From Deltaproteobacteria bacterium (lineage in GTDB: Bacteria; Desulfobacterota; B13-G15): DNA of 11,520 bases. Below, piece by piece: positions 250 through 11,476 of the stretch; position 1 is the stretch's first letter; each line of letters opens with the position of its first letter. A program made the translations under genes and the position numbers. The notes below the pieces were generated by a model, which saw nothing but the letters and a program-made list of their open reading frames with translations, was not told the DNA's origin and searched no databases. Location: contig QMLK01000013.1 in assembly GCA_003646705.1 (NCBI GenBank), positions 1 through 11,520 of the forward strand, read 5' to 3'.

Positions 250-1107
250 ATGATCTGGCAACAGCTTGCAAACGGGCTGGCGATCGGCAGTGTGTACGCC
301 CTCATCGCCTTGGGGCTCACCATGGTCTACGGGGTCCTCAGGATCCTCCACATCGCCCACGCGGGGATCTACGCCCTGGGGGCCTACATAGGGCTTCTGG
401 CCTTCCGCTTCGTGCCCAACTTCTGGTTCTCCTTGGTGGTCGCCATGGCGGCCTGTTCCCTGGCGGGGATCCTCGTAAAACGATACCTCTACATGCCCCT
501 GCTCACCCTCCCGCGCATCGTCCCCCTCATCGCCAGCATAGGCCTCTTCATCGCCATGGAGGAGATCTTCCGCATAGTGGCCGGTCCCTACGTCCTCTCC
601 TTCCCAGCAGACCCGGGCCTCGGGAGCCTGCAGTTGGGGATCGTCAAGATCACCAACAATCAGCTCCTGGTCTTCCTGGTGACCTGCATCCTGCTGGCCG
701 TATTGTGGTTCATCATGAGCAAGACCAAGCTCGGCCTGGCCATGAAGGCCACCTCTCAGGATCTGGAGATCGCCTCGGTTATGGGGATAGACACCGAGAG
801 GATCATCGCTGCGAACTTCCTGATCGGGTCGGCCATGGCGGGGGCTGCAGGGGTGCTCGTAGGGGTCTACTTCAACTCCGTCTATCCGACCATGGGTTCC
901 ATCCCCGCTTACAAGGCCTTGGCCATCATCGTCCTGGGCGGGTTGGGGTCGATCCCCGGAACGGTGCTGGGCGGTCTCCTCATAGGCGTAGGGGAGACCC
1001 TCCTCCTCGGCATGACCGATATCCCCTTTCCACGGGATGCCCTGGCCTTCATCATCATGATCCTCATCCTCATGTTTCGACCTTACGGGCTCCTCGGGAA
1101 GGAGTGA
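250..1107 (+). CDS. livH: Branched-chain amino acid ABC transporter permease LivH
   Basis: This 285-residue, very hydrophobic membrane protein is one of the two channel subunits of a LivFGHM-type importer. The start reads MIWQQLANGLAIGSVYALIAL, the signature opening of LivH ('l.nGl..Gs.YaLiAlGltliyGv'), followed by 'LRILHIAHAGIYALGAY', close to the family's 'infAhG.~.mlgAy'. The cytoplasmic coupling region near residues 170-190 (K-A-T-S-Q-D-L-E-I-A-S-V-M-G-I) and the 'KALAIIVLGGLGSIPGTVLGG' segment (about 218-238) are also typical. Length is normal for the family (about 285-300). The ATG at 250 is preceded by GAGAAGGG at a short spacing. livM begins 4 bases after its stop. Substrate may be a branched-chain amino acid, another amino acid, or a different HAAT ligand such as a urea or aromatic compound. 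Confidence 0.92.
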   Translation: MIWQQLANGLAIGSVYALIALGLTMVYGVLRILHIAHAGIYALGAYIGLLAFRFVPNFWFSLVVAMAACSLAGILVKRYLYMPLLTLPRIVPLIASIGLFIAMEEIFRIVAGPYVLSFPADPGLGSLQLGIVKITNNQLLVFLVTCILLAVLWFIMSKTKLGLAMKATSQDLEIASVMGIDTERIIAANFLIGSAMAGAAGVLVGVYFNSVYPTMGSIPAYKALAIIVLGGLGSIPGTVLGGLLIGVGETLLLGMTDIPFPRDALAFIIMILILMFRPYGLLGKE

Positions 1108-1111
1108 AGAG

Positions 1112-1975
1112 ATGTTCGGCGGCTATACCCTAACCGTGGCGATCAACATCGGGATATACATAATATTGGCCATAAGCCTCAACGTCATCACGGGGTACGC
1201 CGGACAGATCTCCCTGGGACATGCTGCCTTTTGGGGGATAGGGGCTTACTGTTCGGCGCTTTTGGCCACCAAGGCCGGCTTGCCCTTCTGGGTCGTACTG
1301 CCCTTGACCATCGCCCTGACCACCCTCATCGGTTCGCTGCTGGCCATCCCCTGTCTGCGGGTGAGGGAGGACTTTCTGGCCATCACCACCATAGGGATAA
1401 ACTTTGTGGTTCAAGCCGTCTTCCTCTACGTGCCCTTCTTCGGAGGGGCGATGGGGATCGGGGGGATCCAGGCCCCCTTCGGCATGTCCTCCTTCTTTTG
1501 GATCACGTGGGGGTTCGTGCTGCTCTGTGTCGTCCTGGACCGTTGGTTGGTGAGGTCATGGATTGGGCTCGCCCTGGAGTCCATCAGGGAGGACGAGACG
1601 GCTGCGGCCATCTCCGGGATAGACGTGGTGAAGTTCAAGGTCTTGGCCTTCGCCATAGGCAGCGGCCTGGCTGGATTGGCAGGCCACCTTTACGCCTACT
1701 TCATGACCTTCATCAGCGCCGATGACTTCGGCTTTCCGCAGTCCATCGTCATCCTCTCGATGATAGTCTTCGGCGGGATCGGCACCTTGAGGGGGCCCGT
1801 CCTGGGGGCCATCATCCTGGGATTAGCCCCCGAGTTGTTTCGGCCGATAATGGAATATCGCACCCTGATCTACGGGGCGCTGCTGATATTCATGATGCGT
1901 TTCCAGCCCGGGGGCATCCTCGGAGAGGAGAGCCTCATCTTGAGGACCTTCAGGGGGGTGCGCCAGAGGGCTTGA
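1112..1975 (+). CDS. livM: Branched-chain amino acid ABC transporter permease LivM
   Basis: This 287-residue polytopic membrane protein is the partner of LivH in the channel heterodimer. The N-terminal 'LAISLNVITGYAGQISLGHAAFWGIGAY' region (about 19-46) is the LivM hallmark. It is followed by 'LRVREDFLAITTIGIN' (about 84-99), matching the family's 'LRl.GdYlAivTLg'. The cytoplasmic coupling loop is 'ESIREDETAAAISGID' (about 157-172), and the segment with V-I-F-G-G-I-G-T-L-R-G-P lies at about 218-229. Length fits the shorter LivM type without the extra N-terminal segments of E. coli LivM. The start at 1112 has GGAG at 1101-1104, inside the last codons of livH, so translation is probably coupled. 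Confidence 0.92.
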   Translation: MFGGYTLTVAINIGIYIILAISLNVITGYAGQISLGHAAFWGIGAYCSALLATKAGLPFWVVLPLTIALTTLIGSLLAIPCLRVREDFLAITTIGINFVVQAVFLYVPFFGGAMGIGGIQAPFGMSSFFWITWGFVLLCVVLDRWLVRSWIGLALESIREDETAAAISGIDVVKFKVLAFAIGSGLAGLAGHLYAYFMTFISADDFGFPQSIVILSMIVFGGIGTLRGPVLGAIILGLAPELFRPIMEYRTLIYGALLIFMMRFQPGGILGEESLILRTFRGVRQRA

Positions 1976-1997
1976 TGGGTTGGATACAGAGGTCCAG

Positions 1998-2759
1998 ATG
2001 ACTTTGCTGCAGGTCAAATCCCTGACCAAGGACTTCGGAGGGCTCAGGGCCCTGGAGGACGTCACCTTCCACCTCGAGGAGGGGGAAATCCTGGGGATCA
2101 TCGGCCCCAATGGTGCGGGCAAGACCACCTTGTTCAACATCATAAGCGGTGTGCTCCGGCCTACAAGGGGCGAGATCGTCTTCAGGGGGATACCAGTACA
2201 CCGACTGAGGCCCCACCAGATAGCGATGGCCGGCATCGCCCGGACCTTCCAGATCGTCAGGCCTTTCAACAACTTCACCGTGCTGAAGAACGTCCTCGTC
2301 GCCCTCGGCCATCGTTTCTACCCGAGACTCCTCTCCTCTGTCTCCCCCTTCGAGGTCCGGGATCACGTAGAGGCGGCCCATGAGATACTGCGTAGGGTGG
2401 GGATGGACGCCTACAAGGACAGCATAGCCAAGAACCTCCCCTTGGGGCTCAAGAAGCATCTGGAGATCGCTCGGGCTCTGGCCCTGGAGCCGAAGCTGCT
2501 GTTGCTGGACGAGCCCATGGCCGGCCTGCAGCACGGCGAGGCCGAGAGGCTCGCAGCCCTCATACGCCAACTGAGGCAGGAGGGGATCACCATAATCCTG
2601 ATCGAGCACAACGTGCAGGTGGTGATGGACCTGTGTGAGCGGATCGTGGTGCTCGATCACGGGGTGAAGATAGCGGAGGGCCTGCCCGAGGAGATCAGGA
2701 CCGATCCTCGGGTCATAGAGGCCTACTTGGGCACGGGAGGAGAGGTTGCTCAGGGTTGA
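1998..2759 (+). CDS. livG: Branched-chain amino acid ABC transporter ATP-binding protein LivG
   Basis: This 253-residue ATPase is the first of the two Liv nucleotide-binding subunits. Walker A is GPNGAGKTT with the catalytic-loop lysine at about residue 42. Walker B is LLLLDEP (D171, E172), and the switch histidine lies in IEHN (about 204). The C-terminal 'PRVIEAYLG' is the standard LivG tail. The ABC signature is unusual: it reads LPLGLKKHLEIARAL (from about 147) where most ABC ATPases have LSGGQ and many LivG have LSYG, so the Ser is replaced by Pro. I chose the ATG at 1998 because it has GAGG just upstream and gives the usual 'MTLLQVKSLTK' opening. A TTG at 1980 would add six residues and is less likely. 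The 3' end overlaps livF by 14 bases. Confidence 0.92.
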   Translation: MTLLQVKSLTKDFGGLRALEDVTFHLEEGEILGIIGPNGAGKTTLFNIISGVLRPTRGEIVFRGIPVHRLRPHQIAMAGIARTFQIVRPFNNFTVLKNVLVALGHRFYPRLLSSVSPFEVRDHVEAAHEILRRVGMDAYKDSIAKNLPLGLKKHLEIARALALEPKLLLLDEPMAGLQHGEAERLAALIRQLRQEGITIILIEHNVQVVMDLCERIVVLDHGVKIAEGLPEEIRTDPRVIEAYLGTGGEVAQG

Positions 2760-3450
2760 GGGGATAGAGGTCTTCTACGGCGAGTTCCAGGCGGTCTCCG
2801 GGGTCTCCTTCCAGGTGCAGGAGGGGGAGCTGGTGGCCATCATCGGGGCCAACGGTGCCGGGAAATCGACCATCTTGAGAGCCATCATGGGGCTTCAGCG
2901 TTGCAGAAGCGGCAGGATCGTCTTTCGAGACCGAGACATCACCGCCATGCCGACCCATCAGAGGGCACGGTTGGGGATCACGCTGGTGCCCGAAGGCAGG
3001 AGGCTCTTTCCGGACTTGACGGTGGAGCAGAACCTCCTGATAGGGGCATACCGTCGGATCGACCCCGCGGAGATGGAAGAAGACCTCGAACGCATATATG
3101 GGCTCTTCCCCGTCCTCAAGGAGAGGAGGTCCCAGATAGCCAAGACCTTGAGCGGCGGCGAACAGCAGATGTTGGCCATTGGGAGGGCCTTGATGTCGAG
3201 GCCTCAGCTCATCCTGATGGACGAGGTCTCCCTGGGCCTGATGCCCAAATACGTCGACGAGGTCTTCAGGACCATCGAGGGACTTCACCGGGAGGGGGTG
3301 ACCCTGCTGTTGGTCGAGCAGAACGCCCGGAAGGCCTTGGCCATCGCTGATCGGGGCTACGTGCTCGAGACGGGCAGGGTCGTCATGGAGGGTGAGGCCG
3401 CAAGACTGGCCTCAGATCCCCGGGTGAAGAAGGCCTATCTCGGAGGGTGA
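2746..3450 (+). CDS. livF: Branched-chain amino acid ABC transporter ATP-binding protein LivF
   Basis: This 234-residue ATPase is the second Liv nucleotide-binding subunit. It opens with MLRVEGIEVFYGEFQAV, the standard LivF beginning. Walker A is GANGAGKST (Lys about 40), the signature is LSGGEQQMLAIGRAL (from about 135), and the protein ends in 'PRVKKAYLGG'. Walker B reads LILMDEVSLGL (D159, E160), with Val where most LivF have Pro. The switch position is VEQN rather than an H, which is normal for LivF. The start is a TTG at 2746 inside the end of livG, with GGAGG at 2736-2740 at good spacing; no ATG is available nearby. The 14-base overlap with livG points to translational coupling. Confidence 0.92.
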   Translation: MLRVEGIEVFYGEFQAVSGVSFQVQEGELVAIIGANGAGKSTILRAIMGLQRCRSGRIVFRDRDITAMPTHQRARLGITLVPEGRRLFPDLTVEQNLLIGAYRRIDPAEMEEDLERIYGLFPVLKERRSQIAKTLSGGEQQMLAIGRALMSRPQLILMDEVSLGLMPKYVDEVFRTIEGLHREGVTLLLVEQNARKALAIADRGYVLETGRVVMEGEAARLASDPRVKKAYLGG

Positions 3451-3452
3451 AA

Positions 3453-4343
3453 ATGAAGGTCCTTGAGTGCGTACCGAACTTCAGTGAAGGCAGGGATAGG
3501 GCCAAGATCGAGGAGATCGTCGATCAGATCCGACGGACCGACGGCGTGAAGCTCCTCGACTACAGTTGGGACGAAGACCACAACCGTTCGGTGGTGACCT
3601 TCGTCGGTGAGCCGGACAGGGTCTACGAGGCCGCCCTCAAGGCCTGCCTCAAGGCCATCGAGTTGATAGATATGAGGAGGCATTCCGGGGCCCACCCCCG
3701 ATTGGGGGCGGTGGACGTGGTGCCCTTCGTCCCCATCCGCGAGGTGGAGATGGCCGAGGCGGTCGAGATAGCCCATAGGTTCGGCAAGGAGCTGGGGGAA
3801 AGGGCGGGGGTCCCGATCTACTTCTACGAGGAGGCCGCCCTCAGGCCCGAGCGGAGGGAGCTGCCGGCAATACGCAAGGGGGAGTACGAGGGGCTCGAGG
3901 AGAAGCTCCAGGACCCCGACTGGCAGCCCGATGCAGGTCCGAAGGGGTTCAACCCCAAGGCCGGGGCGACGGTGGTCGGGGCCCGATACCCCCTCATCGC
4001 CTTCAACGTCAACCTGAACACCGACGACCTCGAGGTCGCCAGGAGGATCGCCCGGGCGGTGAGGTTCAAGGACGGCGGGTTCCGCTACGTGAGGGCCATG
4101 GGGGTCGCTCTGGCCGAAAGGGGCATGACCCAGGTCTCCATGAACCTGTTGAACTACGAGGGGACCCCTATCCATCGAGTCTTCGAGGCCATCCGCGCCG
4201 AGGCCTCACGGTATGGGGTCCAGATCGTCGAATCGGAGGTAGTGGGGCTCATCCCCCTGGCGGCCCTGGTGGAGGTGGCGAGCTTTTACTTGAGGGCCCA
4301 CGGCCTCAGCCCCGATCAGGTCATAGAGAACAGGCTACTGTAG
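3453..4343 (+). CDS. Glutamate formimidoyltransferase (formiminotransferase)
   Basis: This 296-residue protein matches the formiminotransferase half of FTCD. The enzyme transfers the formimino group of N-formimino-L-glutamate, an intermediate of histidine breakdown, to tetrahydrofolate, giving glutamate and 5-formimino-THF (EC 2.1.2.5). Diagnostic segments are 'VLECVPNFSEGRD' at residues 3-15, 'RHSGAHPRLGAVDVVPFVP' (about 76-94) and 'FNPKAGATVVGARYPLIAFN' (about 166-185). The motif His at about 81 lies where the catalytic His of the pig enzyme sits. Length matches stand-alone bacterial formiminotransferases of about 300 residues. I chose the ATG at 3453 because GGAGG at 3442-3446 is well placed for it; a GTG at 3447 directly abuts that site. 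It begins 2 bases after the livF stop, so it belongs to the transporter operon. Confidence 0.93.
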   Translation: MKVLECVPNFSEGRDRAKIEEIVDQIRRTDGVKLLDYSWDEDHNRSVVTFVGEPDRVYEAALKACLKAIELIDMRRHSGAHPRLGAVDVVPFVPIREVEMAEAVEIAHRFGKELGERAGVPIYFYEEAALRPERRELPAIRKGEYEGLEEKLQDPDWQPDAGPKGFNPKAGATVVGARYPLIAFNVNLNTDDLEVARRIARAVRFKDGGFRYVRAMGVALAERGMTQVSMNLLNYEGTPIHRVFEAIRAEASRYGVQIVESEVVGLIPLAALVEVASFYLRAHGLSPDQVIENRLL

Positions 4344-4355
4344 CTGGAGGAGAAG

Positions 4356-4988
4356 ATGAAGGAACTGGCCCTGTCGCGATTCCTCGAGGACCTCTCCGCG
4401 GGGACCCCGATCCCCGGGGGTGGAAGCGTCTCGGCCCTGGCCGCCGCCCTCTCAGCCTCCCTCATCTGCATGGTCGCAAACCTCACCGTCGGGAAGAAGG
4501 ACTTCGAAGACGTAAGGGGGGAGATGGAGAGGATTTCGAGGGAAGCCCTCTCCATCAGGGACCGGTCCCTTGAGACCATGGCAAAGGACGTAGAGGCCTT
4601 TCGAAGGGTCCTTGAGGCCTATCGCCTTCCCAAGGAGACGCCCTCCCAAAGGGAGCAGCGCAGCAGGCGGATCGAGGAGGCCTACAAGGAGGCCATGGAG
4701 CCGCCCCTTGAGGTCATCGAAGGCGCCCTCCGTCTACTCTCCCTCTGCGAGGCCCTCGTCGAGAGGGGCAACCCCTCCGCCATCAGTGATGCCGCTGTGG
4801 CCCTCTACCTGGCCGAGGCCGCCTTGAGGGGAGGGGTGTCCAACGTCATCATAAACCTAAACAATTTGAGGGATGAAGAGCTGAGGGGGTCGATCAGGGA
4901 GAGGATCGAGGGGCTTCAAGAGAGGGCGAAGGCCTTAAAGGAGAGGGTCGAGGCTGTCCTTTCGTCCAAGTTATTCCATACCCCTTAA
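4356..4988 (+). CDS. Formimidoyltetrahydrofolate cyclodeaminase / methenyl-THF cyclohydrolase family protein
   Basis: This 210-residue, mainly helical protein belongs to the cyclodeaminase/cyclohydrolase family (FTCD C-terminal domain, FchA). It should convert 5-formimino-THF to 5,10-methenyl-THF and ammonia (EC 4.3.1.4), directly following the reaction of the preceding gene. The glycine-rich 'LSAGTPIPGGGSVSAL' at about residues 13-28 is the family hallmark. The segment 'GNPSAISDAAVALYLAEAAL' plus G-G-V-S-N-V-I-I-N-L (about 137-167) is the other conserved block. A GGAGGAG site at 4346-4352 precedes the ATG by 3-4 bases. The gap from the formiminotransferase is 12 bases. Some relatives act as methenyl-THF cyclohydrolases instead; the neighbour favours the cyclodeaminase role. 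The next gene is on the opposite strand 23 bases away. Confidence 0.9.
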   Translation: MKELALSRFLEDLSAGTPIPGGGSVSALAAALSASLICMVANLTVGKKDFEDVRGEMERISREALSIRDRSLETMAKDVEAFRRVLEAYRLPKETPSQREQRSRRIEEAYKEAMEPPLEVIEGALRLLSLCEALVERGNPSAISDAAVALYLAEAALRGGVSNVIINLNNLRDEELRGSIRERIEGLQERAKALKERVEAVLSSKLFHTP

Positions 4989-4990
4989 GC

Positions 4991-5015
4991 CTGATCCCCT
5001 CTTTATCAAGATCAG
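4991..5015. terminator. Weak inverted repeat in the convergent junction
   Basis: CTGATC at 4991-4996 is complementary to GATCAG at 5010-5015 across a 13-base AT-richer spacer. It sits between the two converging stop codons, with the right arm overlapping the minus-strand stop. Only six base pairs form and there is no clear T-run on either side. It may be a weak bidirectional end signal, or chance. Confidence 0.2.
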
Positions 5016-6088
5016 TCCAGGTTGAAGATGGCCCTGGCGTTCTCATAGCTCACCTTGCGAGCTAAGGACCGAGGGAGCTGGGGGAGGATCTTCAGGGCCT
5101 CTGGGCTAGGGGGGCCTATACGCCTCGGCACCTCTGGGGTGACGAAGAAGCGATCGCTCCCGATGAAGAAACGGTCCGGAAAGGCGCCGATCAACTCGAG
5201 CCACTCCGGCTTTATCCTACCCCTTGGGTCCAAGGGGCTGTTGTCCGGCCTGCTGTCGGGGCCCACCTTGAGGCTCATGTAGAGGTTGGGGTGTCTCTTG
5301 AGGAGTTCGCCGCAGAGGTGGGCGGTGCGGTACCCCGTGTTGTCCCATCCTGCGTGGGCCCAGATGATCTTGGCCCTTCGGTTATGGGCCAGGAGTCGTT
5401 CAAAGGCCTCGATGTTCGGTCGCAAGGTCCGGGGGTTGGGCGGCGAGCTGAACCTTGTAGGCAGGGGCATCCTTCGGGGCACCGCCTCCATGTGGAGGTC
5501 TATGGGCACGCAGAAACGTGCGGCGATGTCGACCAGAAGGAGCAGGAGGGGGTGATCAGGGGGAGCCCATTCATAGGGATGCCTGGGGTTGAAGGAGAGG
5601 TGTTCGACCGCCATCTCCCCGAAGCCGAGGGCCCCCTTCTTGAGGATCTCAAGGGCCCTCCTCTCGAACTCCTTCCGCAATCTCGGGCTCACCTCTCCCC
5701 TCTGGAGGGCTCGCTGGATCATGGGGTTTAGCGATCCGCCACCGCCGAGCAGGGCGAAACGGCGAGGGTATCTCTTGATCACGCCCATCAGGTCCTCGAT
5801 GTCGTACCTGTTGGGGTGATGGGGCGGGAAGGGCGGTGGCATGATGACCATCTTGGAGATCCCCAACCTCTGCATGGTGGCCAGGGCCACCTTGGCCGCC
5901 CCCTCGTAATCGAGCACGAGACCTCGAGGGGTCCGAAAGCGGCCCATCAGGTGGTTGTGACCATCTATGACGGGGAGGTCCTTCGCGGAGGCGCTGTATG
6001 GGATCGCAAGGCCGAGGACGATGAGGAGCCATGCAAAAAGGGGCTTCAAAGGGCCCTGCAATTGGTTCAGTCGGCAGAGGTTCTGCAT
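5012..6088 (-). CDS. Secreted amidohydrolase family protein (TIM-barrel metal hydrolase)
   Basis: This protein of about 358 residues looks like an amidohydrolase_2-type (ACMSD / 2-pyrone-dicarboxylate lactonase-like) metal-dependent hydrolase or decarboxylase. Visible metal-site elements are 'VIDGHNHL' (H44, H46), 'IDLHMEA' (H199), 'IIWAHAGW' (H245) and 'FIGSDRFF' (D312), in the order expected for the barrel. A hydrophobic leader 'LFAWLLIVLGLAIPYSASA' ends just before K-D-L-P and is a good signal peptide, so the enzyme should be exported; that is uncommon for this family. The ATG at 6088 has GAGG four bases upstream and overlaps the preceding gene by 22 bases. A TTG at 6049 would start just after that gene's stop and give a tidier leader (MKPLFAWLL...), 345 residues. 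A further ATG at 6124 is unlikely. Substrate unknown. It is the last gene of the minus-strand operon. Confidence 0.8.
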   Translation of the reverse strand: MQNLCRLNQLQGPLKPLFAWLLIVLGLAIPYSASAKDLPVIDGHNHLMGRFRTPRGLVLDYEGAAKVALATMQRLGISKMVIMPPPFPPHHPNRYDIEDLMGVIKRYPRRFALLGGGGSLNPMIQRALQRGEVSPRLRKEFERRALEILKKGALGFGEMAVEHLSFNPRHPYEWAPPDHPLLLLLVDIAARFCVPIDLHMEAVPRRMPLPTRFSSPPNPRTLRPNIEAFERLLAHNRRAKIIWAHAGWDNTGYRTAHLCGELLKRHPNLYMSLKVGPDSRPDNSPLDPRGRIKPEWLELIGAFPDRFFIGSDRFFVTPEVPRRIGPPSPEALKILPQLPRSLARKVSYENARAIFNLD

Positions 6089-6828
6089 AGTTCCTCGTGC
6101 AGAAAGGTCCTCAGGTCCTTCCAATAATAAGCCACCTTCCAGAAGAGCTTGTGTCCGCCGCCGCGGTCATAACGGATGGCGCGGAATTCCTTCCCGTATC
6201 TCCTCAGGGCCTCCTGCAGCAACTCGAAGTCCTCCAAGATCCAGTGCTCGTCTTCGGCTTCGACCATCAGTAAGACGGGGGCCTTGAGGGAAGGTACCCC
6301 CTTCACCGCTTCGGCGAAGAGGCCCCTTCCCGGTGCAGGGGCGAGGATGACCAAGGCCTTCAGGTCCTCCCGTTCCACCCCGACCATGAGGGTCAGGAGC
6401 CCCCCTCGGGAGAAGCCCATGAGGGCCACTCGGTCGGGATCGACCTCCGGCAAGGCCTTCACGTAATCCACCGCTCGAGAGACCTCCTCTTTGTGAGCGG
6501 GGATGTCTCTGCGGCCGCTCCTCCGGATGGTGGCGAAGGCCAAGAAGCCATCAGCGGCCAAGGCCTCACATATCCCCCTCAGGTCGTAGCCACGGAGGGC
6601 TGCCCCTTCGTAGCCCCAGAGATCCACGATTAGACCGTGGTTGTAGATTACGGCTGGGAAGGGTCCCTTTCCAGCCGGTCGGCAAAGGATGGCCTCGCCT
6701 CGTTGTGTCCCGACCTGATGGTTGATGAGGGTGGCCTTGGGGCCTTCGGCATAACTCGAAGGGGGCAGGAGCAGGGACAGGAGGGTGAAGCTCGCGGCGA
6801 GGATCTCCTTTGACACCTTCAGGGGCAT
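6067..6828 (-). CDS. Secreted alpha/beta hydrolase, dienelactone hydrolase-like
   Basis: This 253-residue alpha/beta-hydrolase has the layout of dienelactone hydrolases and related acyl-peptide or ester hydrolases. The nucleophile elbow is GFSRGG with Ser at about 140. The acid is Asp at about 193 in 'VEAEDEHW', and the His at about 226 lies in 'GGGHKLF'; the spacing fits a Ser-Asp-His triad. 'PAVIYNHG' near 58-65 is the oxyanion-side strand. A leader 'LLSLLLPPSSYA' (about residues 16-27) predicts export. It should cleave an ester, lactone or similar bond outside the cytoplasm; the substrate is not evident. AAAGGAGGG directly abuts the ATG at 6828, an unusually short spacing. A GTG at 6816 would have a better-spaced site and would keep the leader. 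It begins 8 bases after the ATPase gene and so is probably in the same operon. Confidence 0.82.
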   Translation of the reverse strand: MPLKVSKEILAASFTLLSLLLPPSSYAEGPKATLINHQVGTQRGEAILCRPAGKGPFPAVIYNHGLIVDLWGYEGAALRGYDLRGICEALAADGFLAFATIRRSGRRDIPAHKEEVSRAVDYVKALPEVDPDRVALMGFSRGGLLTLMVGVEREDLKALVILAPAPGRGLFAEAVKGVPSLKAPVLLMVEAEDEHWILEDFELLQEALRRYGKEFRAIRYDRGGGHKLFWKVAYYWKDLRTFLHEELCRTSAD

Positions 6829-6836
6829 CCCTCCTT

Positions 6837-7658
6837 TCAGAAGCCGCTCAGCTCCATGAAGAGGAAGCTGTCCATCACCTCCTCGCGGAAGAGCTCCATC
6901 ACGCGGTTCTTGACCTCGAAGAATTGGTCCGTCTCGGTAACCTTGTAGTCGCGGGGCCGTGGAAGTCCGGTCTCGATGACCTCCACCACCCGGGCAGGTC
7001 GCTTGCTGAAGACCACCACCTTGTCCGCCAGGTAGACGGCCTCATGGATGTTGTGGGAGATGAAAAGGATGGTGACCCCTGTCTTCTCCCATACCTCCAT
7101 GATCTTGTCGTGCATCCACAAGGTGGTCTGAAAGTCCAGGGAGCTGAAGGGTTCGTCAAGCAGCAGGATGTCCGGCTGGTAGATCAGGGCCCTCAGGATG
7201 GCCAACATCTGCTGCTGTCCCCCGCTCAGCTCGTAGGGGTAGGCGTCCTCGCGGATCGACATATCGAGCATCCAGAGGAACTCCTCCACCCGCCGCTTCC
7301 TGTCCTTGCGGGGCACCCCGTCCAACTCCAGGGGCACCATCAGGTTGCCGAGACAGGTGCGCCAGGGGTAGAGGGATTCACGGTAGTTCTGGAAGACGAA
7401 GCCGATCTTTGCCTCCTCGGGGGTCTTCCCTCCGATGAGGATGCGGCCGTAGTCCATCTCCTCCAGGCCTGCCAAGATCCTGAAGAAGGTGCTCTTGCCG
7501 CAGCCGTTGGGGCCGACGATGGTCACGAACTCCCCCTTGCGGGCGGTGAAGGAGATGTTGTCCAGGACCCTCACCCCTCCGCTGCCGAGGCGGGGGTCAG
7601 GGGCCGTCTCGTAGTGCTTGCTCACTCCACGGACGTAAAGATAGGGTCGCTCAGCCAT
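6837..7658 (-). CDS. ABC transporter ATP-binding protein, nitrate/sulfonate/taurine (NitT/TauT) family
   Basis: This 273-residue ATPase belongs to the SsuB/TauB/NrtD group that pairs with SsuC-type permeases. Walker A is GPNGCGKST (Lys about 55), followed by a Q-loop 'FVFQNYRESLYPW'. The signature is LSGGQQQMLAILRAL (from about 144), Walker B is ILLLDEPFSSLD (D168, E169), and the switch is ISHNIHEA. The aromatic 'SLYPW' after the Q-loop is typical of this family. The length is slightly above the usual 250-260 because of an insert 'APDPRLGSGG' near residues 19-28. The Shine-Dalgarno sequence is weak (AAGG close to the ATG at 7658). It follows the binding-protein gene by 43 bases and should power the permease half of the ligase fusion encoded by the first transporter gene. 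Confidence 0.92.
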   Translation of the reverse strand: MAERPYLYVRGVSKHYETAPDPRLGSGGVRVLDNISFTARKGEFVTIVGPNGCGKSTFFRILAGLEEMDYGRILIGGKTPEEAKIGFVFQNYRESLYPWRTCLGNLMVPLELDGVPRKDRKRRVEEFLWMLDMSIREDAYPYELSGGQQQMLAILRALIYQPDILLLDEPFSSLDFQTTLWMHDKIMEVWEKTGVTILFISHNIHEAVYLADKVVVFSKRPARVVEVIETGLPRPRDYKVTETDQFFEVKNRVMELFREEVMDSFLFMELSGF

Positions 7659-7701: not shown

Positions 7702-8658
7702 TCACCTCGGCCTCGGGGGACTGTAGAAGAGGTTTCCGGTGTCTATCCTCTTCCTGTAAGCTCCTTCCTCGTAGAGGACGTCGAAGTACTGTTGGGCTGC
7801 CCCTCTGTCCAACTCCTCGATCTTGATCCACTGCTCGAAAGGTATCCTCATGGCCACGGGTTCCGGCATCCGTGCGTACTTCACCAGGAAAGCCCTCGCC
7901 TCCCTCTCCCTGGCCTTTATGAAGTCCACCGCCCTGTGGTAGGCCATCCTCAGCCTCTGGGCATCTTGGGGACGGTCCTTCAGGAACTTCCGCGAGAAGC
8001 TGAAGGCCCCTCCGGGTATCCCCCTCTTCAATCCGAGGAGCTTCATGGGGCTCTTCATCAGGTACCGCCCTATCCCCTTGGCCACCGCTATCATCCCCAA
8101 GGGCTCAGGGGTGAAGAAGGCGTCGATCTGCCCAGCTGCCAGCGCCGGCACCATGTTGGGCGGCGGCACCTCCGTGAAGATCACCTTCTCGGGGTCGGCC
8201 ACCTTGCGGAGCACAGCTCGTGCCAAGGCCAAGGAGGTCGCCCCTGGGAAGGTCCCCACCCGTTTTCCCTCCAAGTCCTTGAGCCTGGTGTAAGGGGCGT
8301 CCTTCCTCACCACGACCACGAAGGTGTTGTCCTCCAGGGAACGGTTGCCGTAGACGAGGAATATCTTGAAACGCCCCGGCACGTTCTGCTCAGCGAACCA
8401 GTGGCCGGTGATGGCGCTGCCGCAGTTGGCATCGATCCGTCCCGCCACCAGGGCGTCGATGATGGTGGTGCCCGACTGGAAGGGCACAAGCTCCACCTTC
8501 AGGCCCTGGGCGGCGAAAAAACCCTTCTCATGGGCTACGAAGGTGGGTAGGCTCATCACCAGGGGCAGATAGCCCACTCGAATCGCTCTTTGCTCGGCTT
8601 GGGCCCTCAGGGGGCTGAAAAAGAGGCCAATTAAGAGGACGAGTGCCCATCTCTTCAT
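7702..8658 (-). CDS. ABC transporter periplasmic substrate-binding protein, SsuA/NMT1-like (NitT/TauT family)
   Basis: This 318-residue protein has a clear signal peptide: MKR, then 'WALVLLIGLFFSPLRAQA' with an AxA cleavage site before E-Q-R. The mature part starts 'IRVGYLPLVMSLPTFVAHEKGFF', the standard opening of SsuA/NMT1-type binding proteins ('r.gy.....~p.~vA.~kGff...Gl~v'). It continues with 'LVAGRIDANCGS' and 'LKDLEGKRVGTFPGATSLALAR'. There is no lipobox, so it should be soluble in the periplasm. Members bind small anions such as sulfonates, aromatic carboxylates, nitrate or pyrimidine precursors; a carboxylic acid would fit the fused ligase. A near-perfect AAGGAGGTGA Shine-Dalgarno lies in the 12-base gap after the fusion gene, the strongest in the block. 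That suggests it is the most heavily translated subunit. Confidence 0.9.
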   Translation of the reverse strand: MKRWALVLLIGLFFSPLRAQAEQRAIRVGYLPLVMSLPTFVAHEKGFFAAQGLKVELVPFQSGTTIIDALVAGRIDANCGSAITGHWFAEQNVPGRFKIFLVYGNRSLEDNTFVVVVRKDAPYTRLKDLEGKRVGTFPGATSLALARAVLRKVADPEKVIFTEVPPPNMVPALAAGQIDAFFTPEPLGMIAVAKGIGRYLMKSPMKLLGLKRGIPGGAFSFSRKFLKDRPQDAQRLRMAYHRAVDFIKAREREARAFLVKYARMPEPVAMRIPFEQWIKIEELDRGAAQQYFDVLYEEGAYRKRIDTGNLFYSPPRPR

Positions 8659-8670
8659 CCTTCACCTCCT

Positions 8671-10962
8671 TCAGGATTGTTTCCCAGCCCAATGGATGAG
8701 CTTTTCCTCCATCTTCACGTAGCCCTGATTCATGAAGTAGCCGATGAGGCCGGCCATGATGATGAAGGCGTACATGTCCGCGATCTGGTAGGTCATGTGG
8801 GCGTTGTAGATCATATAGCCGAGGCCTTGCTTGGTGCCGATGAACATCTCCAGGACCACGACGATGATAAGGCTCAAGGAGAGGGCGAGGCGAAGCCCTG
8901 CGGAGATCTGCGGCAGGGCCTCGGGCAGGACCACCTTGGCCATGATATAGGCCTCCGAGGCCCTCATGGTCTCGGCCACCATCCTGCGGGTGCGGCTACA
9001 ACCCCTCACCCCGTAGGTGGTGTTCACCAATATGAGCAGCGAGCAGCCGAAGACCACTAAGGCGATCTTGGAGCCATCCCCGATGCCGAAGGCAAGCATG
9101 AAGAGGGGGAACATGGCTGTGGCCGGGAAGGAGCGAAAGAAATCGATGATGAACTCCACGGACTTGTAGACCTTCTCCCAGTACCCGAGGACTATACCCA
9201 AGGGGATGCCGATGAGCGCCGCCAGGGAGAAGCCCACCATCATGCGGTAGAAGGTCTTCAGCAGATGGCCGTAGGTGGAGGAATCCCCCAACAGGGCGGC
9301 CATGCGTCCGGCCACCTTGGCCGGAGAGGGCAAGAAGAAGGGATCCACCAGCTCAAGGCCCGAGAGCAGAAACCAGAGCAAGAGGAGCATGAGGGGACCT
9401 ATCGGTTTTTTATGCTCCGCGATGAAGTCCCAGAACTTCCTGAGTTCGCTTTCTGCGGCCTTCAGCTCCCTTTTTGCCACCTTGCCCGTGCGGGAGCGGG
9501 GCAACGATTCGCGGAACTCCACCACCTTGGGGATCTTGAAGCTGGCGAGCCTCTCACGGCAGAACTTCAGCAGTTCCCGCTTACCGAGGCTCTCGCCCAC
9601 CTTGGGGACCACCACCGCCTTCAAGGCCTGTCCCCTCTCGGGGTCGGGGATCCCCACCACCGCGACCTCGGCCACCTTGGGGTGGGAGATGATGACGTTT
9701 TCCACCTCGGAGGGGTATACGTTCATGCCGCCGGTGATGATCATGTCATCGGCACGGCCTAACACATAGAGGTAGCCGTCCGAATCGAAGCGCCCGAGAT
9801 CGCCCGTCCAGTACCAGCCGTCCCGGATCTTCTGGGCTGTGGCCCGGGGGTTCTTGAAGTAGCCCTTCATGATCTGGGGACCCCGGGCTATCACCTCTCC
9901 CACCTCCCCCGGGGGCAGTTCCCGTCCCTTCTCGTCCACCACCTTCAGTTCCACCCTGGGGGCTGGGTAGCCGGCGCTTGCCACCTTCCGGGGGGCGTCC
10001 TCGAAACGGGTGAGGGTCAAAAGGGGCGATGTCTCCGTGGCACCGTAGCCCTGAAGGGGCACGGCGTGGGGGTAAGCTTCGTACCACTCCTGCATCAACT
10101 CCTCGGGCACCACCGTCCCCATCATGGCCACAAAGCGGAGGCTCGACAGATCGTAGCGCTCCCGGCTCGGCAGGTTCAGGATCATCTGGAAGATGGGCGG
10201 CACGGCGTGAAAGAAGGTGATGCGGTGCTCCTGAACCGCCTCGAGGATCTTTTTCGGCCTTATCTCCTCGACGATCACCACCGTGAGGCCTACATCGGCC
10301 ATCAGGTTCAGGATGATGGGCCCCGAGATGTGGGACATGGGGAGGATGGAGCCGTCCACGTCCCGGTCGCTTATGGGCAGGTGGGCCTTCATCGTCTCGG
10401 GGAAGTAGGTGAAGTGGTCGAAGGTGAGGACGACCCCCTTGGGCCTGCCGGTGGTCCCCGAGGTGTAGAGGTAGACCGCCTCGTCGGTCTCCCCGACCGT
10501 TACAGGGGGTTCAGAGGAATCTCCCTTGGAGACGATCTCCTCGTAGGGTTGGAGTTCCTCGGAGGATCTCCCCTCTCCGACGATTACCACGTGCTTCAGG
10601 CCCTCCTTTTCCCGCATCATCCTCAAGGCGAAGCCCCGCTGCTTGGAGTGGGTGAGCAGCACCTTCGCCTCCGTCTCGTCGAAAAGCGGGGCCATCTCCG
10701 GGGGGCTCAACCTGAAGTCGAGGATCACGGCCACGACCCCGATCTTCATCAGGGCGAAGTAGATGGGGGCGAACTCAGCACAGTTGGGCAGAAGCACCAC
10801 GGCCCTATCGCCCTTCTTCAGCCCCCTGTCGAGGAGCCAGTTGGCGAGGCGGTTGGCCTCTTCGTTGAGCTCCGAGAAGGTGAGGCGGTCCGCCCCACAG
10901 ATCACCGCCACCTTTTCGGGCCGCCTTTTAGCCTGCTCGGTGAGATGATCCCCTACGATCAT
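8671..10962 (-). CDS. Acyl-CoA synthetase (AMP-binding) fused to NitT/TauT-type ABC transporter permease
   Basis: This 763-residue protein has two full domains. Residues about 1-505 form an ANL-family acyl-CoA ligase: P-loop YTSGTTGRPKG (166-176), GYGATETSP (from 305, E310), YWTGDLG (D388), hinge GRADDMIITGGMNVYPSEVE (402-421), and C-terminal LPRSRTGK with the catalytic lysine at 494. Residues about 520-763 form a SsuC/TauC-like permease with about six membrane spans. Its coupling loop 'EAYIMAKVVLPEALPQISAGL' (from E670) and 'GTKQGLGYMIYNA' tail are typical. A short charged linker (about 500-520) joins them exactly where the permease's cytoplasmic N-terminus should be. The ligase should therefore face the cytoplasm at the channel exit and turn an imported acid into its CoA thioester using ATP. 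The ATG at 10962 overlaps padR by 35 bases and has only a weak AGGT upstream. The acid substrate is not predictable by eye. Confidence 0.93.
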   Translation of the reverse strand: MIVGDHLTEQAKRRPEKVAVICGADRLTFSELNEEANRLANWLLDRGLKKGDRAVVLLPNCAEFAPIYFALMKIGVVAVILDFRLSPPEMAPLFDETEAKVLLTHSKQRGFALRMMREKEGLKHVVIVGEGRSSEELQPYEEIVSKGDSSEPPVTVGETDEAVYLYTSGTTGRPKGVVLTFDHFTYFPETMKAHLPISDRDVDGSILPMSHISGPIILNLMADVGLTVVIVEEIRPKKILEAVQEHRITFFHAVPPIFQMILNLPSRERYDLSSLRFVAMMGTVVPEELMQEWYEAYPHAVPLQGYGATETSPLLTLTRFEDAPRKVASAGYPAPRVELKVVDEKGRELPPGEVGEVIARGPQIMKGYFKNPRATAQKIRDGWYWTGDLGRFDSDGYLYVLGRADDMIITGGMNVYPSEVENVIISHPKVAEVAVVGIPDPERGQALKAVVVPKVGESLGKRELLKFCRERLASFKIPKVVEFRESLPRSRTGKVAKRELKAAESELRKFWDFIAEHKKPIGPLMLLLLWFLLSGLELVDPFFLPSPAKVAGRMAALLGDSSTYGHLLKTFYRMMVGFSLAALIGIPLGIVLGYWEKVYKSVEFIIDFFRSFPATAMFPLFMLAFGIGDGSKIALVVFGCSLLILVNTTYGVRGCSRTRRMVAETMRASEAYIMAKVVLPEALPQISAGLRLALSLSLIIVVVLEMFIGTKQGLGYMIYNAHMTYQIADMYAFIIMAGLIGYFMNQGYVKMEEKLIHWAGKQS

Positions 10963-11476
10963 CTGAAAAGGTACCTATCAGGTCCTTCACGAATTGGATC
11001 TCGGTTTCGACCATACGCCGGTTGTGCTCCAGGATGATCTCCTCGGCCCCTTCGTGGTGCTCCGGCAGGTTCTCCCTCTGCCTCTTGAGCAAGAACCGCA
11101 GCTTCCGCAGCTCTTTAAGCCTTTCCTTCAAGGCCTCCACCACCTCCCCCCTATCGAGGAGGTCGAGGAAATAAAGGGTTACATCTAAGTCGAAAGGCGG
11201 TCGCTGCAGCCGCTTTAGGCCCTTGAGCAAGGCCTGCTGTAAGTGCCTCTTCCCCTTCTCCGTGATCCGATATACGTATCGCTGAGGGCGTCTCCCCTTC
11301 GTCTCGCTCCAATGGGTCACCAGGCCCTCTTCCTCCAACTTCCTCAGAGCGTAATAGAGGGGGGCGGCGGAGGCGGCGAGGAAGGGATAAAGGTCCCTCT
11401 GAAGCCGCTGCCGCAGCTCATACCCGTGGGCCGGCCCCTGTATCAGAAGCCCCAAGACGATCAGCTTCAGATCCAT
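10928..11476 (-). CDS. PadR family transcriptional regulator
   Basis: This 182-residue protein begins 'MDLKLIVLGLLIQGPAHGYEL', the standard opening of PadR regulators ('lll.lL..gp.hGYel'). A winged helix follows: 'LYYALRKLEEEGLVTHW' (about 40-56) and 'RYVYRITEKGKRHL' (about 66-79). The rest is charged and helical ('LKERLKELRKLRFLLKRQREN'), as in PadR dimerisation domains. PadR proteins usually repress neighbouring genes and often their own; the founding members respond to phenolic acids. It is the first gene of the minus-strand block, so it probably controls the fused ligase-permease and what follows. No Shine-Dalgarno is visible before the ATG at 11476, so the message may be leaderless or weakly translated. 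The 3' end overlaps the fusion gene by 35 bases. Confidence 0.9.
   Translation of the reverse strand: MDLKLIVLGLLIQGPAHGYELRQRLQRDLYPFLAASAAPLYYALRKLEEEGLVTHWSETKGRRPQRYVYRITEKGKRHLQQALLKGLKRLQRPPFDLDVTLYFLDLLDRGEVVEALKERLKELRKLRFLLKRQRENLPEHHEGAEEIILEHNRRMVETEIQFVKDLIGTFSDDRRGSSHRAG

Follow-up and report, generated by a model that had tools for sequence, protein, structure and literature searches.

Transporter-coupled acyl activation is already known, and an ANL ligase carried on an ABC importer permease is a new form of it. Excerpts of PMC11416262 describe a complex between the lysophospholipid transporter LplT and Aas, an enzyme with an acyl-ACP synthetase domain; some bacteria apparently encode the pair as one ORF, and these one-ORF versions are noted as uncharacterised. 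Peroxisomal ABC transporters of subfamily D work with interacting acyl-CoA synthetases, according to the excerpted text of PMC4900756, while vectorial acylation and FAT family 4.C.1 are named in an excerpt of PMC7997004. ABC importers for aromatic acids are likewise known (e.g., PatDABC for phthalate, in the excerpt of PMC10973024). A search of the open-licence PubMed Central literature turned up no paper on an ABC importer permease with a fused ANL ligase.

One reading frame with ligase and permease domains

The fusion lies at 8671..10962 on the minus strand of the window (the whole stretch of 11,520 nucleotides that was analysed) and is a single ATG-started frame of 763 amino acids plus stop in the ORF translation. 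The same coordinates and one 763-codon frame had been given in an earlier note on this DNA, to which the minus strand is an addition. The predicted product is a complete ANL acyl-CoA ligase, a short linker, and a complete NitT/TauT-type ABC permease, with the following parts:

8671..10962, minus strand: fused gene, 763 aa, acyl-CoA ligase plus ABC permease (ORF, Pfam, recurrence)
9460..10962, minus strand: ligase part, residues 1-501 (AMP-binding 8-369, AMP-binding_C 419-494)
10435..10467, minus strand: ANL phosphate-binding loop YTSGTTGRPKG, residues 166-176 (translation and conservation)
9481..9483, minus strand: catalytic lysine K494 in the ligase C-terminal subdomain (alignment of 118 fusions)
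9397..9459, minus strand: linker and permease N-terminal helix, residues 502-522 (spacing, CmpB alignment, pLDDT)
8674..9396, minus strand: permease part, residues 523-763, with BPD_transp_1 at 585-741 (Pfam, CmpB/NrtB similarity, hydrophobic segments, predicted helices)
8893..9000, minus strand: coupling (EAA-type) loop region, residues 655-690 (conserved; preceded by about four transmembrane segments in the predictions)

Both Pfam domains that define an ANL ligase exceed their curated cut-offs, AMP-binding with 311.8 bits against 29.9 (E 7.6e-93) and AMP-binding_C with 82.1 bits against 24.5 (E 5.8e-23). The C-terminal part is of the NitT/TauT type, since BPD_transp_1 also exceeds its cut-off (69 bits against 26.4, E 5.6e-19) and the closest solved permeases are CmpB (E 2.3e-23) and NrtB (E 8.3e-21). 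An MFS permease domain, the mark of an LplT-Aas-type protein if LplT is, as we assume, of the MFS family, was not found in the fusion by Pfam at E up to 0.001, and BPD_transp_1 is the sole permease domain found. The P-loop at 166-176 and residues E310, D388, and K494, all named by the earlier note, are present in the translation and make up the ANL motif set, which we take to be the phosphate loop, the acidic residue of the GYGATE motif, the D of the TGD motif, and the C-terminal lysine. Amongst the best 25 of 117 NCBIfam models for the fusion, one exceeds its cut-off, a broad long-chain-fatty-acid--CoA ligase subfamily model. A structure search, whose alignments cover residues 1-505, gave fold matches that include CoA ligases and an acyl-ACP synthetase, and the nearest ligases of solved structure have aromatic or fatty acids as substrates; a substrate call from the fold was rejected, as aromatic and fatty-acid ligases are too close together. 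CoA, rather than a carrier protein, is the putative thiol acceptor.

The predicted model of the fusion has confident domains, a pTM of 0.61, and pLDDT below 50 at residues 503-508. The earlier note had looked to such a model for the placement of the ligase; the domains are well defined in it, but a fixed ligase position over the pore is not seen. A hydrophobicity scan together with the model gives about four membrane segments before the EAA-type loop, a count that leans on the model because the third and fourth segments of the scan overlap (620-638 and 633-651). The coupling loop is cytoplasmic in this permease family, so that with about four segments preceding it the N-terminal ligase should also lie on the cytoplasmic side, where the ATP and CoA that it requires are found. 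The linker, residues 502-522, aligns with the N-terminal segment of CmpB, placing the join near the last residues of the ligase, and the permease seems to retain its own N-terminal helix.

Recurrence, history, and conservation of the fusion

In 395 genomes of the phylum, a permease-only query matched 100 genomes at E up to 1e-25, and nine genomes (G000, G002, G003, G004, G006, G007, G008, G009, and G392) contain the fusion. The permease match in these nine is 73-100% identical and lies inside a frame of more than 700 aa (the G007 copy is cut by a contig end), whereas the next-best permeases of the sample are 39-40% identical and occupy ordinary frames of 262-265 aa. Eight of ten genomes analysed from the window's class carry the fusion; neither it nor the binding protein was found in G001 and G005, whose assemblies are 68% and 80% complete. 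In the class of G392, the fusion is present in 1 of 23 genomes. Named records with the fusion are MAGs labelled Syntrophobacterales, Desulfobacteraceae, and Deltaproteobacteria. Four of the 77 loci returned from nucleotide records carry it; in the other 73 the match is confined to residues 1-527. A protein search with residues 480-763, which kept lengths of 0.55 to 1.75 times 763 aa and so excluded stand-alone permeases, gave 215 proteins, and the three Pfam domains are present in each of the best 120 of the 215. With the ligase part alone as query, the 7999 best candidates were scored, of which 7986 were kept as matches; among the best 120 of these, 98 have all three domains and 22 the ligase domains only, and in two of the 22 (P0239 and P0262) the frame runs on into a permease that ends early, which looks like a frameshift. 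With the clade 2 protein P0119 as query, 11 of 394 in the phylum sample matched at E 1e-150, none closer than 61%, and patterns of P0119 had no match in IMG/VR. JGI automatic names already give both halves for many members. Proteins with AMP-binding and BPD_transp_1 domains, which the earlier note had suggested seeking in several genomes, thus recur (9 of 395 phylum genomes and 117 database proteins), and with 98 three-domain proteins among the best 120 ligase matches, close homologues are not always encoded as two genes, the outcome by which the note would have given up its proposal.

These counts bear on the alternative that two genes were joined through an assembly error or a missed stop. 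A ligase of 510 aa (P0238) and a permease of 236 aa (P0121) are annotated separately on contigs that are both 29,874 bases long, and P0242 is a ligase-only row in clade 1, both of which would suit an artefact. Such an origin is contradicted by 118 full-length fusions and by the nine genomes, which come from different assemblies; recurrence across genomes refutes an artefact by assembly or frameshift, and we give this explanation virtually no chance. In the P0238/P0121 pair, the ligase ends in the linker, and a real split and a sequence error are both possible. An internal start for a separate permease was also considered and rejected: 13 of the 118 fusions have any methionine from residue 496 to about 525, and these are scattered over eight columns, indicating no conserved start (ATG alone was surveyed). 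Other enzyme-permease fusions were sought among long frames (866, 613, 563, 527, and 460 aa) and set aside, as the five loci lack similarity to the ligase at E 1e-6, and in the three loci whose long frames were listed (L162-L164) these frames seem to be open by chance.

A ligase tree of 78 thinned rows (25 of clade 1 and 30 of clade 2; midpoint root, with long-branch warnings for the outgroups) places the fused rows, among which the ligase-only rows are nested, apart from four outgroup ligases that stand alone (support 100/100). Within the fused group, one branch is clade 1 (100/98), and the other unites clade 2 with 17 ligase-only rows (100/99). Inside clade 2, where inner branches are weaker (89/72, 94/94), these 17 rows make up a clade of their own (100/99). 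Their position is consistent with later permease loss, and it suggests that the ligase can function on its own. In a quick permease tree, thinned to 66 rows and with many long branches among stand-alone permeases, the fused permeases form one clade, to which the split P0121 and the fusion fragments P0129 and P0130 also belong. Its sister is P0137, a stand-alone permease of 247 aa on a contig of 1,330 bases (SH-aLRT 96 and 99). Most simply, the trees would reflect a stand-alone ligase and a stand-alone permease joined in one old fusion, followed by later losses of the permease half. The genome G392 comes from outside the window's class, and its fusion is 77% identical overall; locus L155 (G392:C1:391950-394238) holds fusion, binding protein, and ATPase, and the 22 other genomes of its class are without the fusion. 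Horizontal transfer of the fusion is likely.

The alignment comprises 118 full-length rows, that of the window and 117 database proteins of 735-775 aa (out of 268 fetched; 65 of clade 1 and 52 of clade 2), and members of the two clades are at a median 59% identical to each other (range 53-63%, 3380 pairs). Residues E310, D388, and R403 and the P-loop residues T167, S168, G169, T170, K175, and G176 are each invariant (118/118), and K494 is K in 117 rows and R in P0115. In the coupling loop, T665 is kept in 117 of 118 fusions, and M666, A668, Y672, V677, P680, P684, G689, and R691 in all of them. Residue 670, given as E670 for the start of this loop in the earlier note, is E in 64/118 fusions only. 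The loop is conserved, but the position aligned by eye with the glycine of the EAA motif is K in 117 fusions and R in one; one or the other of these two residues also occupies it in P0139, P0141, and P0142, which are unfused relatives. Regardless of clade, 37 residues lead from K494 to W530 in the first transmembrane helix (118/118). The mean top-residue frequency is lowest in the linker (0.59), with 0.76 and 0.79 in the ligase subdomains, 0.67 in residues 523-584, and 0.85 in the BPD domain. For nine genes (window, G002, G003, G004, G006, G008, G009, the G392-type locus L039, and L040), NG86 ratios of median dN to median dS are about 0.11 for ligase N, 0.15 for ligase C, 0.20 for the linker, and 0.11 for the permease, rough values given a dS near 1 and 28, 28, 22, and 30 usable pairs of 36, respectively. 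Judged by these ratios, purifying selection acts on every part of the fusion, linker included.

The linker is also where a simpler role for the fusion can be weighed, namely that it only sets the ratio of the two parts and keeps a peripheral ligase close to the membrane, leaving transport unaffected. A low-confidence, possibly flexible hinge in the model at residues 503-508 would permit this, as would the existence of ligase-only relatives, but a linker of exact length across two clades that is itself under purifying selection argues for more than a tether, making such a role quite unlikely.

Operon partners and a proposed capture of the imported acid

Three genes of the window accompany the fusion:

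10928..11476, minus strand: PadR-family regulator, overlapping the fusion start by 35 bases (ORF, Pfam)
7702..8658, minus strand: substrate-binding protein, SsuA/NMT1-like, 318 aa, with a signal-like N-terminus (ORF, Pfam)
6837..7658, minus strand: ABC transporter ATPase, best solved match NrtD (ORF, Pfam, solved-structure match)

The genes run in one direction in the order PadR, fusion, binding protein, ATPase. In the window, the overlap between PadR and fusion is followed by gaps of 12 bases (fusion to binding protein) and 43 bases (binding protein to ATPase); five relatives with a PadR frame just upstream (L146, L147, L150, L151, and L040) have an overlap of 14 bases. Ten loci were compared (the window, L145-L151, L039, and L040, with clade 2 contexts left out), and in all ten a binding protein and an ATPase, the partners of a type I importer, follow the fusion; SsuA/SsuB-like neighbours were what the earlier note had suggested looking for. 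A PadR gene is present in eight of the nine loci not cut upstream (after the ATPase in L145); L039 is without one, and L149 is the cut locus. Each operon has one permease gene and one to three binding proteins, and the extra copies (two in G006, three each in G008 and G009) suggest a widened ligand range. A substrate call from the binding protein was set aside as well, the structure predicted from five sequences being of low quality (mean pLDDT 59.1). CmpB and NrtB each appear as six chains in three entries, i.e., two per complex, which together with the single permease gene points to a homodimer that would bear two ligases per importer.

On one strand of plasmid CP026658.1 (L008 3096-7104), the four functions are encoded by separate neighbouring genes, with an ANL ligase (30% identical) beside a binding protein, a permease, and an ATPase, and this unfused set supports a functional link independent of the fusion. 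The plasmid's host is a cockroach hindgut deltaproteobacterium, and the ATPase frame is absent from the plasmid annotation table. The nearest unfused permeases of the phylum sample (G062 and G085, 39-40%) adjoin a binding protein and an ATPase, with no match to the ligase of the fusion in the 12.0 and 8.2 kb read. Other genes were noted around the fusion. In G003, a 674-aa protein with a hydrophobic N-terminal stretch and no Pfam match lies between fusion and binding protein (L146 7069-9093, the same as L041 10283-12307). In the window, the ATPase is followed by two genes (5012-6828, minus strand) whose products, one similar to dienelactone hydrolases and the other an amidohydrolase, each have a signal-like N-terminus; no protein of the other loci examined clustered with them. 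A branched-chain-type ABC set with two permeases and two ATPases directly precedes a formiminotransferase and a separate cyclodeaminase (250-4988, plus strand; Pfam FTCD_N/FTCD and FTCD_C), suggesting that a formimino or histidine-like compound is taken up and degraded.

The reading that we favour, with a probability of roughly 0.6, is that of a type I ABC importer that takes up a carboxylic acid, each permease subunit bearing its own cytoplasmic ligase and the two ligases of the dimer trapping the acid as its CoA thioester. A periplasmic SsuA-like protein would deliver the acid, and the fusion dimer, powered by an NrtD-like ATPase dimer, would move it inward. On the cytoplasmic face, the ligase, tethered by about 20 residues to the first transmembrane helix, would adenylate the acid and pass it to CoA, after which the acid could not leave; the PadR regulator would control the operon. 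The dimer, the cytoplasmic N-terminus, the ligase chemistry, and the regulation are drawn from knowledge of the families, and we infer that the imported molecule may be the substrate of the ligase and that coupling might speed or drive uptake. In favour of this reading, G001 and G005 yielded neither fusion nor binding protein, and acyl-CoA dehydrogenase matches occur in nine of nine fusion genomes checked. Against it stand the 17 ligase-only relatives inside clade 2. Ligase and ABC import together would cost about 4 ATP equivalents per molecule, a price that also counts against capture, being odd for energy-poor anaerobes (a lifestyle hinted at by some record names) unless the compound is scarce and valuable.

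Alternatively, the operon could be a unit for lipid scavenging or remodelling, in which a fatty acid or lipid part is imported and the ligase makes the acyl donor for a neighbouring LpxL-like acyltransferase, by analogy with LplT and Aas and their lysophospholipids. The imported molecule need not then be the ligase substrate. A PF03279 (Lip_A_acyltrans) gene sits beside the cluster in eight of the ten loci (L145-L151 and L039), and G021 has three such genes next to PadR and a relative that consists of the ligase only. In L145-L151, however, the gene faces the operon and is outside it, and the seven loci may count as one syntenic event. That of G392 (L039) belongs to a different subfamily (~27% identical), lies on the same strand directly after the ATPase, and may be an independent association; it is one of three above cut-off in a genome of 2.1 Mb. 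Additionally, PF03279 was not found in 11.8 kb of L040 or in the window's own genome (G000, 83% complete), which has the fusion, while G005, in which fusion and binding protein were both not found, retains an acyltransferase that is 73% identical. The last two observations make the acyltransferase a lead and not a part of the machine, and the lipid unit is unlikely; the neighbouring LpxL-like gene suggests a lipid role in some relatives. The G021 locus (L153 6076-12029) has its ligase-only relative (44% identical) between the PadR gene and three tandem LpxL-like acyltransferase genes, and importer-gene matches are absent from its 12.2 kb. Matches to LpxC and to acyl-CoA dehydrogenase each occur in all nine fusion genomes checked, and both lipid A synthesis and acyl-CoA breakdown seem to be available there.

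Capture of the acid by the tethered ligases could also take a stricter form, a primary-active group translocator in which the ligase and importer cycles are mechanically linked and cytoplasmic release and CoA capture gate each other. The C-terminal subdomain of an ANL ligase rotates between the adenylation and thioester steps, and this rotating subdomain is the one joined, at the 37-residue spacing, to the first transmembrane helix; for this reason the linkage is put forward as a tentative possibility. If the ligase does trap the cargo of the permease, the fusion would be an ATP-driven import machine with chemical capture inside the channel subunit. It would then provide a genetic handle on acyl-CoA synthetases as transport participants as opposed to mere consumers of the product, as mutation of the ligase lysine would separate the two, and it would indicate that there is a scarce acid which these uncultured bacteria retain at high cost.

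Comparison with known systems

Vectorial acylation resembles the proposed capture in that formation of a CoA thioester is tied to acid entry. To our knowledge, however, its known forms (FadL/FadD and FATP) include no ABC permease or binding protein, and the synthetase is unfused to such a channel. Peroxisomal ABCD transporters are of another ABC type than the fusion. They share with it the ABC transport of acids followed by CoA esterification by transporter-interacting synthetases, but they belong to a eukaryotic organelle, their substrate comes as a CoA ester that the transporter cleaves, and fusion to the synthetase is not described in the excerpted source (PMC4900756). Given these transporters and LplT-Aas, as presented in the excerpts of the two papers (PMC11416262, PMC4900756), the earlier note drew too strong a contrast between this layout and known vectorial acylation. 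LplT-Aas is like the fusion in bringing a transporter and an acyl-activating ANL enzyme together in one operon, and apparently one ORF, with import followed by acyl chemistry at the inner membrane. It is unlike the fusion in that LplT is an energy-independent flippase and Aas adds an acyltransferase domain and charges acyl carrier protein, and a binding protein or ATPase is not described as a part of it in the excerpted text (PMC11416262). The NrtBCD and CmpBCD systems match the window system in their permease, ATPase, and binding-protein families, and CmpB has a similar N-terminal segment before its first transmembrane helix. The fusion found in NrtC and CmpC joins transport parts, a binding-protein-like stretch on the ATPase, whereas that of the window places a metabolic enzyme on the permease.
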